Below are positions 22,911 to 63,729 of a stretch of DNA of 64,000 nucleotides, piece after piece (the stretch's first letter is position 1; each line of letters begins with the position of its first letter). Origin of the DNA: Bolinopsis microptera (Eukaryota > Ctenophora > Tentaculata > Lobata > Bolinopsidae). Made by a program: the position numbers and the translations under genes. The stretch spans positions 9,246,901 to 9,310,900 of the forward strand of contig NC_087082.1 of assembly GCF_026151205.1 (NCBI RefSeq), in the 5' to 3' direction. The notes beneath the pieces were generated by a model. The model was not told where the DNA came from. It saw only the letters and a list, made by a program, of their open reading frames with translations, and ran no database searches.

Positions 22911-22915
22911 CGAGG

Positions 22916-23105
22916 TCGAAAATTTGAGCGAAGTAAAATGTTAAGGCTGGTCTTCGGCTCATACGGGTGCTACGGGTCAAACTTAGGGAATTCATTGCTA
23001 CACATTTTACTTCGTCGAAAATTTGAGCGAAGTAAAATGTTAAGGCTGGTCTTCGGCTCATACGGGTGCTACGGGTCAAACTTAGGGAATGCATTGCTAC
23101 ACGTT
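22916..23105. repeat. tandem duplication, 99-bp period
   Basis: A unit starting TCGAAAATTTGAGCGAAGTA begins at 22916 and again at 23015, with near-perfect identity through GGTCAAACTTAGGGAAT and CATTGCTACAC. It lies directly against the 3' end of the LINE fragment at 23.2 kb. Confidence 0.85.
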
Positions 23106-23194
23106 GTATACCTCTCGTGCACGCCGGCCGGCGAGAGAGGCCTTTTGCGGCCCGCGCGATCAAGAGGGGTTACAGCGTGTGTCAAGGAATATAT

Positions 23195-24188
23195 ATATAT
23201 AATAACATCTATAGATGTTTATAGATAAACAAAAGAGCACCTAAAGAGGCTCAGCAAAGTGCTGGCCTATTTACGCTTACAAAGACTCATTCGTTCAATA
23301 TGTCTCAAAGTAAATAAACTCCTCCATCCTACTCTATCTCTTGCTAAGTTCACTAAGTTGGTAAAATCATCTTCGTTTTTCAAATAAATTTGTCTCTTAA
23401 ATAGGTCCTTTTTCACAATAATATCATACAAATTAGTCCTGTGTCTACCCACTCGTCCCTTTAGCGTTTGACTTTGACATCCTAGTGTAGCAAATAACAG
23501 AGACTGGTAGGCAGGCGTGTCGTTGTCACTGCGTAGAACATGACCTAGCATTGTCCACCGTGCCTTTTCCACTCTCTCGGAAAGGGGCCTGGTCTGGGTA
23601 CGAGCGTAGAGGGCCTTGTTAGATATTGAGCTAGGCCAATAGATATGTAGGATGCGCTTGAGGTGCTTCCTCTGAACAACATCTACAGACTCTAGAACAT
23701 GCTGAGGTACGGCCCAGCAGCAGCAGTTGTACAGGAGCACTGATACTACTAGTGAGTCGTAGAGTTTGATCTTTCTCTTCTCAGTTATCTGACTCCTTTG
23801 GTTGACGATGTCAACCCATCGAGATCGTTGCTCTGCGAAGCAGAGCAACGATCGACGATCGACGATGCGAAGCAAGAATGCTAGTTCGCGCGGCGCGTCG
23901 AAGCGGCGAAGTCCTCCAACTGACTCCTCTCTGATCCCTGGCACCACAGCTTGTCAAATGACCAGAAGGCGGTGTTAGCTTTATTGTTTATTTATTCTAT
24001 TTGTAACATCCTGCTCTGATCCAAGTTTAGTTCCAAGAAGCGTCTCGTTTCTCCACCCCTCTTTTCCTCTTAGCTCATTATCCCACTCGTCAAGGAATGC
24101 ACTGTAAAAATCACGTACAAACCAAACCATAAAATAGTAGACAGCCAGTCATTCACATATTACCTTAAATGGGGGGGGGGGGGGGGGG
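23195..24188 (-). mobile_element. 3' portion of a non-LTR retrotransposon (array unit 1, longest copy)
   Basis: Minus-strand coding 23947-23267 reads ITEKRKIKLYDSLVVSVLLY, then a WPSSISNKALYARTQ block and an RWTMLGHVLRSDNDTPAYQ block, ending DRVGWRSLFTLRHIER. These are typical of the RT thumb and C-terminus of L2/CR1-like LINEs. The 3' end lies near 23200 with a TATATATA tail. A short copy of the same 3' end is inserted at 59.9 kb. The stretch before ITEKRK is not LINE-like and carries the GC-rich hairpin module described elsewhere. Confidence 0.75.
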
Positions 24189-27094
24189 TTCAACTTTGAC
24201 ATCCTAGTGTAGCAAATAACAGAGACTGGTAGGCAGGCGTGTCGTTGTCACTGCGTAGAACATGACCTAGCATTGTCCACCGTGCCTTTTCCACTCTCTC
24301 GGAAAGGGGCCTGGTCTGGGTACGAGCGTAGAGGGCCTTGTTAGATATTGAGCTAGGCCAATAGATATGTAGGATGCGCTTGAGGTGCTTCCTCTGAACA
24401 ACATCTACAGACTCTAGAACATGCTGAGGTACGGCCCAGCAGCAGCAGTTGTACAGGAGCACTGATACTACTAGTGAGTCGTAGAGTTTGATCTTTCTCT
24501 TCTCAGTTATCTGACTCCTTTGGTTGACGATGTCAACCCATCGAGATCGTTGCTCTGCGAAGCAGAGCAACGATCGACGATCGACGATGCGAAGCAAGAA
24601 TGCTAGTTCGCGCGGCGCGTCGAAGCGGCGAAGTCCTCCAACTGACTCCTCTCTGATCCCTGGCACCACAGCTTGTCAAATGACCAGAAGGCGGTGTTAG
24701 CTTTATTGTTTATTTATTCTATTTGTAACATCCTGCTCTGATCCAAGTTTAGTTCCAAGAAGCGTCTCGTTTCTCCACTCCTCTTTTCCTCTTAGCTCAT
24801 TATCCCACTCGTCAAGGAATGCACTGTAAAAATCACGTACAAACCAAACCATAAAATAGTAGACAGCCAGTCATTCACATATTACCTTAAATGGGGGGGG
24901 GGGGGGGGTGGGGGTTCAACTTTGACATCCTAGTGTAGCAAATAACAGAGACTGGTAGGCAGGCGTGTCGTTGTCACTGCGTAGAACATGACCTAGCATT
25001 GTCCACCGTGCCTTTTCCACTCTCTCGGAAAGGGGCCTGGTCTGGGTACGAGCGTAGAGGGCCTTGTTAGATATTGAGCTAGGCCAATAGATATGTAGGA
25101 TGCGCTTGAGGTGCTTCCTCTGAACAACATCTACAGACTCTAGAACATGCTGAGGTACGGCCCAGCAGCAGCAGTTGTACAGGAGCACTGATACTACTAG
25201 TGAGTCGTAGAGTTTGATCTTTCTCTTCTCAGTTATCTGACTCCTTTGGTTGACGATGTCAACCCATCGAGATCGTTGCTCTGCGAAGCAGAGCAACGAT
25301 CGACGATCGACGATGCGAAGCAAGAATGCTAGTTCGCGCGGCGCGTCGAAGCGGCGAAGTCCTCCAACTGACTCCTTTCTGATATATCCCTGGCACCACA
25401 GCTTGTCAAATGACCAGAAGGCGGTGTTAGCTTTATTGTTTATTTATTCTATTTGTAACATCCTGCTCTGATCCAAGTTTAGTTCCAAGAAGCGTCTCGT
25501 TTCTCCACTCCTCTTTTCCTCTTAGCTCATTATCCCACTCGTCAAGGAATGCACTGTAAAAATCACGTACAAACCAAACCATAAAATAGTAGACAGCCAG
25601 TCATTCACATATTACCTTAAATGGGGGGGGGGGGGGGGGGGGGTTCAACTTTGACATCCTAGTGTAGCAAATAACAGAGACTGGTAGGCAGGCGTGTCGT
25701 TGTCACTGCGTAGAACATGACCTAGCATTGTCCACCGTGCCTTTTCCACTCTCTCGGAAAGGGGCCTGGTCTGGGTACGAGCGTAGAGGGCCTTGTTAGA
25801 TATTGAGCTAGGCCAATAGATATGTAGGATGCGCTTGAGGTGCTTCCTCTGAACAACATCTACAGACTCTAGAACATGCTGAGGTACGGCCCAGCAGCAG
25901 CAGTTGTACAGGAGCACTGATACTACTAGTGAGTCGTAGAGTTTGATCTTTCTCTTCTCAGTTATCTGACTCCTTTGGTTGACGATGTCAACCCATCGAG
26001 ATCGTTGCTCTGCGAAGCAGAGCAACGATCGACGATCGACGATGCGAAGCAAGAATGCTAGTTCGCGCGGCGCGTCGAAGCGGCGAAGTCCTCCAACTGA
26101 CTCCTCTCTGATCCCTGGCACCACAGCTTGTCAAATGACCAGAAGGCGGTGTTAGCTTTATTGTTTATTTATTCTATTTGTAACATCCTGCTCTGATCCA
26201 AGTTTAGTTCCAAGAAGCGTCTCGTTTCTCCACTCCTCTTTTCCTCTTAGCTCATTATCCCACTCGTCAAGGAATGCACTGTAAAAATCACGTACAAACC
26301 AAACCATAAAATAGTAGACAGCCAGTCATTCACATATTACCTTAAATGGGGGGGGGGGGGGGGGTGGGGGTTCAACTTTGACATCCTAGTGTAGCAAATA
26401 ACAGAGACTGGTAGGCAGGCGTGTCGTTGTCACTGCGTAGAACATGACCTAGCATTGTCCACCGTGCCTTTTCCACTCTCTCGGAAAGGGGCCTGGTCTG
26501 GGTACGAGCGTAGAGGGCCTTGTTAGATATTGAGCTAGGCCAATAGATATGTAGGATGCGCTTGAGGTGCTTCCTCTGAACAACATCTACAGACTCTAGA
26601 ACATGCTGAGGTACGGCCCAGCAGCAGCAGTTGTACAGGAGCACTGATACTACTAGTGAGTCGTAGAGTTTGATCTTTCTCTTCTCAGTTATCTGACTCC
26701 TTTGGTTGACGATGTCAACCCATCGAGATCGTTGCTCTGCGAAGCAGAGCAACGATCGACGATCGACGATGCGAAGCAAGAATGCTAGTTCGCGCGGCGC
26801 GTCGAAGCGGCGAAGTCCTCCAACTGACTCCTTTCTGATATATCCCTGGCACCACAGCTTGTCAAATGACCAGAAGGCGGTGTTAGCTTTATTGTTTATT
26901 TATTCTATTTGTAACATCCTGCTCTGATCCAAGTTTAGTTCCAAGAAGCGTCTCGTTTCTCCACTCCTCTTTTCCTCTTAGCTCATTATCCCACTCGTCA
27001 AGGAATGCACTGTAAAAATCACGTACAAACCAAACCATAAAATAGTAGACAGCCAGTCATTCACATATTACCTTAAATGGGGGGGGGGGGGGGG
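23479..27094 (-). repeat. five-unit tandem array of about 727-bp LINE-derived units separated by poly(G)
   Basis: Units 2-5 run 24189-24914, 24915-25643, 25644-26370 and 26371-27094; unit 1 is the 5' part of the LINE copy at 23.2-24.2 kb. Every unit ends ACCTTAAAT plus G(16-21), and units 2-5 start TTCAACTTTGACATCC. Units 2 and 4 share TCTCTGATCCC and an uninterrupted G tract. Units 3 and 5 share TTTCTGATATATCCC and are each preceded by a G tract interrupted by a single T. The array is therefore a doubled dimer. Each unit carries a truncated minus-strand RT C-terminal frame. Copy number may differ in reality because poly(G) is hard to assemble. Confidence 0.9.
23823..23853. repeat. perfect hairpin, 14-bp stem with GAA loop (recurs in every array unit)
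   Basis: GATCGTTGCTCTGC and its exact complement flank a GAA loop; the tip is GCGAAGC, a DNA heptamer known to form an unusually stable mini-hairpin. Identical copies occur in array units 2-5 (near 24545, 25271, 26000 and 26727). Confidence 0.85.
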
Positions 27095-27148
27095 TTCAAC
27101 TTCATATGATTCCGCTAGTGTAATTTTGACTCAATAGCTAATTGTGTT

Positions 27149-27577
27149 GACCATTGTTAATGATTTGGCCCGGCGCGCGCTACTTTGTAGCTCGTGCCAT
27201 CGGGCCAACATTTCGAGAAGAAAGCGGCGCGCGCTACTTCGAAGAAATTTAGACGAGTAATATCCGTCAACTGTTTTGACAGCAATAAGATAACATTATT
27301 TTCTATCTTGTGAGAAAATATGGGTTAAAATAAACGAGTGTGTTGCTCTATCCAGAGCCCGAGCGCTTACAGTGGCGCGCGCCCGCCTCCCGGCGGTAGA
27401 AAGGCGCGAAAGCACATGATTGGTAGGTGAAACGAGCGTGCTAAATCACTTAACGGATGTTACTCGTCGAAATCTCTTCGAAGTAGCGCGCGCCGCTTTC
27501 TTCTCGAAATGTTGGCCCGATGGCAAGTGCTACGAAGTGGCGCGCGCCGGGCCTGATCATTAACATGACAATGGTCA
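27149..27577. mobile_element. foldback element with about 125-bp GC-rich terminal inverted repeats
   Basis: The left arm starts TTGACCATTGTTAATGATTT and runs through GGCGCGCGCTACTT and ATCGGGCCAACATTTCGAGA to GACGAGTAATATCCGTCAA. The right arm is its reverse complement with modest drift, ending ACAATGGTCAA at 27577. About 170 bases of unrelated sequence lie between. No target duplication is clear. Confidence 0.75.
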
Positions 27578-27700
27578 AATATAAATCACTCGATCGTCGA
27601 CACGTTTAAAATGAAATCACGATCAACGATGAGGGTCACGACGTGAAACAATTAAAACCAATTCCTGAATCGACGTATTTTTTGTATCGTACCCCACGGT

Positions 27701-27827
27701 TTGACCATTGTTAATGATTTGGCCCGGCGCGCTACTTCGTTGCACTTGCCATCGGGCCATTTAACATTTCGAAAAGAAAGCGGCGCGCGCTACTTCGACG
27801 AAATTTAGACGAGTAACATCCGTCAAC
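27701..27827 (+). repeat. solo arm of the same foldback element
   Basis: This repeats the left arm of the 27.15-kb element (TTGACCATTGTTAATGATTT ... GAGTAACATCCGTCAA) with a few changes and no opposite arm nearby. A further partial arm (TTTCGAGAAGAAAGCGG ... ATCCGTCAA) lies at 28540-28600. Confidence 0.7.
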
Positions 27828-27849: not shown

Positions 27850-28157
27850 ACAATATTGTAGCGCGATGCATTGTAGCGCGATGCACTACTGGGTCGCGCG
27901 CGCGCATCCAATAATGCTTCTCGCAACCACAGATGCAGATCGGCGAGATGCGAAGGATTGACATCGTCAATCAACGCGATGCACTACTGGGCCGCGCATC
28001 CAATAATGCTTCTTGCAACCACTTATGCAGATCGGCGAGATGCGAAGGATTGACATCGTCAGTTAACGCGATGCACTACTGGGTCGCGCATCCAATAAAG
28101 CTTCTCGCAACCACTTATGCAGATCGGCGAGATGCGAAGGATTGACATCGTCAATCA
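27850..28157. repeat. GC-rich tandem repeat, three units of 92-98 bp
   Basis: Units begin CGCGATGCACTACTGGG at 27877, 27975 and 28067. Each contains CATCCAATAA.GCTTCT, CAACCAC...ATGCAGATCGG, CGAGATGCGAAGGATTGAC and the palindrome TTGACATCGTCAA. They share modules with the 10.4-kb cluster and with the array hairpin segment. Open frames here merely read through the repeat. Confidence 0.85.
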
Positions 28158-28384
28158 AGGTACGATACTATACATACTTACACATAACAGGGGAGCGCGT
28201 ACGCGGCGGGTCATACAACGTATGTTCCATATATTAGGATCGTATATATTAGGACTTATATTTTTTCCATATATCAGGACCGTCGACGAGTCCAACTCGG
28301 CGCGCGTTTTGGTAGGTTATAAACTAACAAGTCTTACGTACGGTCGATGGCGCAATGCCTACTATTTTTAAGAACAAAATACGT

Positions 28385-29683: not shown

Positions 29684-32600
29684 TTAATTCGAATTTTTTG
29701 AATTAAAACTTACACTGATAAGATTAGAAAAGAGTCCCTCCATGGTTTTGAAGTGCTCCTTTTCTAGGTCGAATCTCTTCTCCTGCATCTCCATCCACCA
29801 CCTCATCTTCAGATCCTCCTGACCCTGCACACGTGTATTAATTGTTAGATACAGGATAGATGTAGGATGCTTTTTTAATAGTACAACTTTCAAGCGAACT
29901 AAAAGTTTTGATGAGTGGTTTAACCGTCAAATTATTCGCATCAATCACACTGGTTTTGCTTTCATAAAGATCACAAACTAATGGAGCAATATTTTGACAA
30001 TGCTCGTTGCTCAAAACTCAAAAGTTGGTAAATTTAACATTAAACACAATTAGAATGGAAAACTTTACCTGAGACATTTTAATGTTCTTGTTCAGTTCCG
30101 ATACATTGTTAATTATTTGAGCGATACTTCCAAGCATCACCAGCTTCTCGTCTGATTCACTGACTGCTACTTTTCGTCTCTTGCTCGCTGCAATGGTGTT
30201 CGGTTACTATTGCGATACAATTCAAAGAGTTTATGCTAATGTATAATTATCACCTAGCTGAGATCACTGAAATGAGTTTAGATTTCTTCTATATCCTACT
30301 AGGCTACTACTACCAGACCAACTCTACTCATCGTGACTATTGAATTTCGGGATTCCGCTACCAGTTACCACACATTCAAAATACAACAGCCCGATAATCG
30401 ACGACTTAAAACAATGGTTTTGTACTCAGTGATCTACAGTCTACACTTTCATATAAATTCCTCACCAGGTAACTCCTCACTAAAAGTGGGCGTGGTCACT
30501 TGACTAGTGGGTGTGGTCACGTGACTAGTTGCTTCGTCCGGTTCAGTGGTGGACGGAGTGAGGGGTGAGGTAGGGTTACTGAGATCTGCTTTGATGCTTC
30601 TCGGGGGTTGTGCCGGTCTGAAGTAGTAGTGGGGTTTTATTGAACCATTCTACAGAAATGTTTGGCTCTTACTAATTCGCTTGCCCAACAATTATCACGT
30701 GACTTTGATTTTTATAGTTTTGCAGCTGAACAATACTGTTTTACATAAAACCTAATCCCAACCCTAACCCTAAACCTAACTCCGAAGCTATCCATAACCC
30801 TAACCACAACCCTAACTCTAACCCGAGCCCTAAACGATCAAATTCGTGTTTTACTAGCCTGTCATGTGACCAAAATGTTTTTTTCCCCCATAACTCTCCA
30901 GGGAAGCATTTTTACCCTACGTCATGGGGGGAGGGGGGGGGGGGGGGGGTGATTCGGAGTTAGCGTCCAAAAACACACGGAACTAGATTAGATTCATACC
31001 TTCAGAGACTTTTCACAAGAATTTAAAAAAAATTGGGCGAGCGATTTAGTGGGAGCGGAAATGTTTGGATCTTTCGGGACAATTTTAAAAGTGAAAGCGG
31101 TTGCTGCGGAAGTAACTGTGAAGGGACTGCCGACTCAAAATAGAAATAACGCGCGCCATGGTTTTTATTTACCGTACTTCAACGATAGATTTCAGATCCT
31201 TACAAAATTCTATAGAATTCCTTATCCAAAAATTCATTCCCACGAATTATTTTCTTCCGAAAATCTATTTTTATGGCCTAATCAAGACTTTAAAGAATAA
31301 ACATACCCGGTAGTGGAAGGAGAAGTTATGAGAGACTTGATGAGTTCCTCGAATCCAGCTTGATCTGACTCTTTCAGGAACTGTTGTTGGTCGGCAACTT
31401 TACCGGTAAGACTCGACAACATCCTCTTTATCAACATGTTGTGCTCACCCATCATGTCTTCTAGCTTCTCTGAAGGTAACTTCAGCCCAGGTCCTCCCAC
31501 CTAGAAAATTAGAGAGTTAGGTTCTTCAACTCGTAGAGAATTGGTATTATCAAAAAATGTACTTCAAATTTCCACAGTAAGTAAAAGCCTTAAAACCTAA
31601 ATGGTCACCCTTGTCGCGTAAACGATGGACTGTGACCGAATGTCTACCGACGAGTGATCACCAGTTATGACAAATTTTTGAGGGAAATTTTGATCTTTTA
31701 AATACATGTTATTAATGCATGTTATTTTTCCAGGATTTCCTTTTATTTAATCGTAGTGGACTAAGTTCGATTACAGGTCCTATTTTTAGGTCCACTGCAT
31801 TTCCAAAAAATCACGCTCTCCAAGACTAATTGTTTTAACAATTTAACAAATCTGAATAAAAATCTTACCTTAGAAAATGCGGTGTCTACGTATTTGGGAA
31901 TGGGTTTTGGTAAGATCTGTATCATTCCGGAGTGACCTGAGATGTTTAAAGATCAGTTAGAAGTGAATAGTGATGATTATTATTTAGTGATTCAAAGTTG
32001 ACAGAGAAATTGCTAACACCTCTCGCAATCACACACGTACTCACACGGCCCGAAAATAAAATTGCTATACATAGCCTTCTTATCTTAGCTCACATTTTAT
32101 AATAAAATCTGAGTAAAATAAAGGGCGGTCGTTTCAATTAGCAGTATAGATATCTATAGATGATCTTAGTAGTATAGATGATCTTTCGAACCTATTAACT
32201 TTTCAAATCATCCAAATTAAAACTTCTCCAATTCCATACATATCGACGAAAGCAAAACTTACTGAGCCTATCGATATCGTTAGCGAAAGTAAGAGGGTAG
32301 AGGGAAGTGATCGGGGAGTTGGTGTAGTTGGAGGTAGATGAGGGAGGAGAGTTGTGATCTAGTTCTTGTTTCTTAATCCAGTTCTTACCCAACACAGCCT
32401 GGAATAGTTATTAGAGGGGTTAAGGACAACTTTCGTAAATTTGAACTTTGAGACAATTTTGGTGCCGCGGTAATTAGGTTCCAAGCCCGTACTGGCACTG
32501 CCGCCACCCAATCACTAACTTGGCAGTAGAGCATAAACAGTGGTGAACTTCAGTTCTTGTTCTGGGATTGGTTCTCAAAACTAAATTTCAAATACGTACG

Positions 32601-37065: not shown

Positions 37066-63729
<26,664 letters not shown>

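Follow-up and report, generated by a model that had tools for sequence, protein, structure and literature searches.

We found a head-to-tail array of five near-identical units at 23471-27098 of the window, a 64,000-nucleotide stretch of the Bolinopsis microptera genome (C11:9246901-9310900). In the assembly sequence the units measure 722-729 bp, in keeping with the length of about 727 bp originally given, and each contains a G tract. In all likelihood the array arose by a local tandem duplication at the DNA level that spans the 5′ boundary of an ordinary dead LINE copy, joined through microhomology and subsequently enlarged by unequal exchange. Its form matches published microhomology-joined duplications and routes to satellites derived from transposable elements, and the array is therefore of a known kind, an ordinary, local, single-locus tandem duplication. 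The observation made in an initial annotation is partly confirmed, with its edges corrected from 23479..27094, and the accompanying interpretation is partly supported.

Compared without the G tract, the five units differ by only 2 substitutions and one 4-bp ATAT indel, a likeness that, judged by alignment of the bases, is far beyond chance. A private C marks unit 1, the ATAT insertion and a C-to-T change are common to units 3 and 5, and a T inside the G tract is common to units 2 and 4. The pairing of units 2/4 and 3/5, already recognized in the initial annotation, is supported by three markers with zero conflict. G-tract lengths, earlier summarized as G(16-21), are 18, 16+T+5, 21, 17+T+5 and 16 in units 1 to 5, respectively. 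The order 1-(2-3)-(4-5) is most simply read as a dimer duplication, and the growth by a 1.45-kb dimer that had been proposed fits this pairing of units.

Table 1. Coordinates of the array, its units and the associated features within the window.
Feature	Position	Strand	Remark
Unit 1	23471..24192	+	722 bp
Unit 2	24193..24918	+	726 bp
Unit 3	24919..25647	+	729 bp
Unit 4	25648..26374	+	727 bp; identical to unit 2 save one G
Unit 5	26375..27098	+	724 bp; identical to unit 3 save five Gs
Poly(G) tract, unit 1	24171..24188	+	
Poly(G) tract starts, units 2-5	24893, 25623, 26348, 27079		
Flank DNA carried in every unit	24099..24170		72 bp; confined to the array
LINE (non-LTR retrotransposon), 5′-truncated, with the 122-bp element inside	23191..24088	-	From sister alignments
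Open frame, 226 aa	23267..23947	-	LINE-derived part reads as the C-terminal region of the RT ORF
122-bp dispersed element in LINE	23798..23919		At least 35 other places, nearly the same bases
Target-site duplication GTCAAGGAAT, 3′-side copy	23181..23190	+	Equals the copy at 24089-24098
Target-site duplication GTCAAGGAAT, 5′-side copy	24089..24098	+	First GTC shared with the LINE
Private 6-bp direct duplication TTTGACTTTGAC, left breakpoint	23467..23478	+	None in the 19 readable sisters
TTCAACTT at right breakpoint	27095..27102	+	ACTT is 27099-27102

The starting LINE copy carries the 10-bp target-site duplication and 5′ truncation by which target-primed reverse transcription is recognized; beyond 24088, the compared sister copy runs on with different sequence. 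The family comprises at least 39 other copies among the matches listed on contigs C1 to C13. Six sister copies share 98% identity with the window copy over 23225-23797 (23241-23797 for one of them), and the same six share 91-93% identity over 23920 to 24091 or 24095. The Pfam scan of the 226-aa frame alone gave zero matches. A nearly identical sister on C5, L053, encodes a 508-residue ORF in which residues 52-273 match RVT_1 (E 1.3e-16) and which weakly resembles, in sequence, chains of LINE-1 ORF2 (E 6e-6) and R2 (E 0.0016); these three matches relate the family to RT-encoding non-LTR elements. The window copy aligns from near residue 283 of the L053 ORF and so lacks any part of the RVT_1 match. 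The array locus contains no RT domain, and its function is most likely none. From the 3′ flank common to L011, L015, L017, L018, L022 and L033, which are copies at different places, and from an alignment of L015 with L054 that extends over 3 kb and includes a tandem-repeat flank, the LINE seems to be carried within a larger dispersed repeat.

Each repeated unit starts inside the LINE ORF, runs out of the LINE 5′ end, crosses the 72-bp flank and enters the poly(G) tract, ending 4-8 bp past it. One boundary therefore does lie within the RT ORF, as had been stated, in the C-terminal part and beyond the RVT_1 match. The earlier description of the units as LINE 3′ fragments is wrong: the LINE 3′ end is present only once, in 23191-23470, outside the units, and what the units hold in addition is flank that is not LINE. 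When positions 24080-24170 were searched against the whole assembly (264.65 Mb, 232 contigs), all 5 matches fell within the array, and the 72-bp flank is otherwise single-copy. Nor is the poly(G) a spacer inserted as punctuation between units; it is flank DNA within the unit and is also found before the unique right flank. We considered whether the tract might belong to the LINE family, and rejected this: the 72-bp flank and the target-site duplication stand between the LINE and the tract, and of 25 sister loci (L011-L035, scanned over about 3.5 kb each, so that other 5′ ends may fall outside) one had 12 or more G or C in a row. That single run, a G28 in L015, starts 214 bp past the end of the L054 alignment and 309 bp past the L053 alignment.

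The 16-mer TTCAACTTTGACATCC is present at the four internal junctions; the exact junction attributed to all five units thus holds for four. Ahead of unit 1 stands GCGTTTGAC, and after unit 5 comes GGGTTCAACTTCATATG. Past unit 5 comes G16-TTCAACTT-CATATG, which makes the G tract and TTCAACTT part of the right flank; since this pair also abuts the unique flank on the right, ACTT|TGACATCC is the true joint. The internal joint reads GGGTTCAACTT|TGACATCC, with ACTT on both sides, and because GGGTTCAACTT recurs in the right flank before CATATG, the four junctions are simple joints of right edge to left edge with 4 bp in common. The microhomology ACTT lies at 23471-23474 and 27099-27102, and shrinks to TT once the 6-bp duplication is discounted. 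At both outer edges other sequence continues past the near-identical copies, as in a tandem duplication. A genome search for the junction, suggested at the outset, returned one further exact match to the 16-mer, on C10; within 60 bases on each side of it there is neither a G tract nor any likeness to the array, and we discarded the idea of a reusable junction motif.

Sister LINE copies run across the left edge of unit 1 unchanged save for a 6-bp difference, which identifies this edge as a place internal to the LINE and not a LINE end. In the window, the edge reads GCG-TTTGAC-TTTGACATCC, and a single TTTGAC is found in all 19 sister copies that were readable, out of 25 examined (6 of these gave no anchor) and at least 39 listed. 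Six of the 19, namely L011, L015, L017, L018, L022 and L033, have the same 3′ flank and are therefore not independent insertions. As 0 of the 19 carry TTTGACTTTGAC, the duplication was rejected as a mark of a LINE subfamily.

The 122-bp element within the LINE is probably a MITE; the number of other places given in Table 1 is a lower bound from 40 scored candidates. It is flanked by the 9-bp sequence CTGACTCCT at 23789-23797 and 23920-23928, and the element together with these repeats occurs in five of five units and is therefore older than the array. Other repeats were observed in the same window. Beside the array, at 27147-27827, a dispersed GC-rich element of ~130 bp with at least 39 other places occurs three times, in both orientations, and short tandem repeats flank the array, with 92-bp units at 27901-28158 and 99-bp units at 22915-23102. 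A dispersed direct repeat of 1.47 kb, its copies 97% alike and 12.3 kb apart, occupies 47833-49299 and 60111-61578.

We propose the following series of events. A 5′-truncated LINE inserted with a 10-bp target-site duplication, after which the MITE-like element entered the LINE with a 9-bp duplication. A break or stalled fork would then have joined TTCAACTT, just right of the poly(G), to TTTGACTT in the LINE through the ACTT microhomology, giving two copies of about 725 bp. Unequal exchange or slippage would have added further copies, with the 1.45-kb dimer as the last step. The two insertions and the tandem nature of the duplication are evident in the sequence of the locus itself. For the joining, we infer either template switching or end joining of the polymerase-theta type acting on a copied end; the later gain of copies would have gone by unequal exchange or by slippage, either of which, acting between units about 99% alike, suffices to bring an array of two units to five. 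Against the joining step as drawn here stands TTTGACTTTGAC at the left edge of unit 1, an edge that a simple tandem duplication should leave unbroken. The 6-bp duplication would have to come either from an earlier slip, which would then have supplied the microhomology, or from a staggered break at the same place whose ends were filled in during the event.

Could fewer units exist than were assembled? The pairs 2-3 and 4-5 are distinguished by G-run lengths alone (one and five Gs), and homopolymer length is a typical error of long reads. The dimer step therefore rests on the assembly; the published B. microptera genome was built with wtdbg from PacBio sequencing (PMC10232365). Units 1, 2 and 3, however, can be distinguished by base changes and an indel that lie outside the G tract, and at least these three are thus unlikely to derive from one read path. 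We consider it improbable that assembly duplicated units 4-5, or more, and that the true locus has three units or fewer. Far more remote is an origin in repeated retroposition or in insertion of a circular copy. The units do contain LINE sequence, and circular intermediates can yield tandem insertions; but the LINE 3′ end is missing from every unit, and all of them share one single-copy flank, which matches nowhere else, so that repeated target-primed insertion cannot have produced the array. Units of a repeated-retroposition array end at the element's 3′ end, whereas these end in host flank. The earlier statement that ordinary retroposition does not explain the array stands, and duplication at the DNA level takes its place.

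A sharper form of the joining step would give the poly(G) itself a part, a quadruplex stalling replication and a break at the tract edge causing the tandem duplication. The right breakpoint is only 4-8 bp from the tract, and the chance of either breakpoint falling within 6-10 bp is about 0.003-0.004, a post hoc figure from a test picked after the array had been seen. Tracts of 16 or more G/C are common, numbering 12,681 in the whole genome (6,226 forward, 6,455 reverse), or one per 21 kb. Two published studies lend the idea some weight: worms deficient in DOG-1 have deletions with one end immediately upstream of a G4 (PMC8654963), and human CNV breakpoints are enriched in predicted quadruplex sequence (PMC4090240); the G4 breaks in worms nevertheless yielded deletions and not duplications (PMC8654963). 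Our survey of G tracts against array edges covered 258 kb, 55 loci (23 with a tract) and 57 tracts of 12 or more, a non-random set of 18 loci from one end of C1, 25 LINE copies, 11 copies of the right-flank element and the window itself. Six of the 57 tracts, the array's own included, lay no more than 10 bp from an array edge, where 1.97 were expected. After declustering, in which arrays whose unit has at least six G or C in a row were dropped (a filter that also removes the five-unit array itself) and each locus was counted once, 2 of 55 loci remained within 10 bp against 1.55 expected, with no excess at 25 bp (2 against 2.44) or 50 bp (3 against 3.51). Seeding by quadruplexes, raised in the initial annotation, is possible but draws no support from the declustered form of this small and skewed survey, and we hold a causal role of the tract to be a tentative and rather unlikely refinement of the local duplication that we favor.

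Long G tracts recur elsewhere in the genome. Among 71 matches to GTTA-G16, 11 adjacent same-strand pairs lie within 3 kb, against about 0.03 expected, and a second set of 47 matches contains one such pair by eye; both counts use positions only. G tracts accordingly recur in local clusters. One GTTA-G16 cluster, again from positions only, spans about 80 kb at C10:17332421-17411207, with several matches within 300 bp of another. At L059:1223-1595 there is a minisatellite of AACCTGTTGTA and variants with C runs of 7-23 between, the last of 4, that is, a short-unit array punctuated by poly(C). L085:1-7501 contains a ~2.88-kb tandem repeat whose copies are 95-96% alike and have one G tract each (16, 18 or 20), preceded by nearly the same flank. 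Within the window, other long G tracts are found at 40484-40512, 59437-59463, 59492-59509 and 30933-30949. The tracts at 59437 and 59492, together with a C12 run at 46381, adjoin GATTACG/CGTAATC repeats, and of 51 surveyed tracts of at least 14, 5 have this motif no farther than 60 bp away; because of this proximity, some G tracts may belong to a dispersed element. We speculate, and think it quite doubtful, that long poly(G) tracts are recurrent germline break points here and that arrays marked by poly(G), whatever their size, are scars of a single process. If true, such a process would start tandem duplications with one joint only a few bases from the 3′ side of the tract and would cover minisatellites (an 11-base core plus a C run) as well as 0.73-kb and 2.9-kb units.

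The locus is a clean worked case and by itself changes no view. Its LINE edge, target-site duplication and nested MITE-like element make the order of events readable and, with a breakpoint beside a G run, it is usable in a genome-wide test of tandem duplications from poly(G) breaks outside repair mutants. In a limited literature collection, no paper combining ctenophores, tandem repeats and G-quadruplexes was found.

Several known systems offer comparisons. Spontaneous tandem duplications in helq-1 C. elegans are 0.1-10 kb long with a median of about 1 kb, have microhomology at their joints with occasional templated insertions, and depend on polymerase theta (PMC8654963). The array resembles them in its unit of 0.72 kb, its head-to-tail order and its short microhomology, but differs in being amplified to five units and in having its 6-bp duplication at the left edge and not in a joint. 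With the G4 deletions of dog-1 (FANCJ) mutants it has in common a rearrangement end beside a long G run; those mutants, however, give deletions, whereas the array is a duplication that retains the tract. For satellites that originate from transposable elements, partial LINE ORFs included, a review names microhomology end joining and unequal-crossover-type exchange as routes (PMC9659126). Like such satellites, the array has a partial LINE ORF inside its tandem unit; unlike them, it is a single locus of five units, and its unit crosses the edge of the element into the flank.
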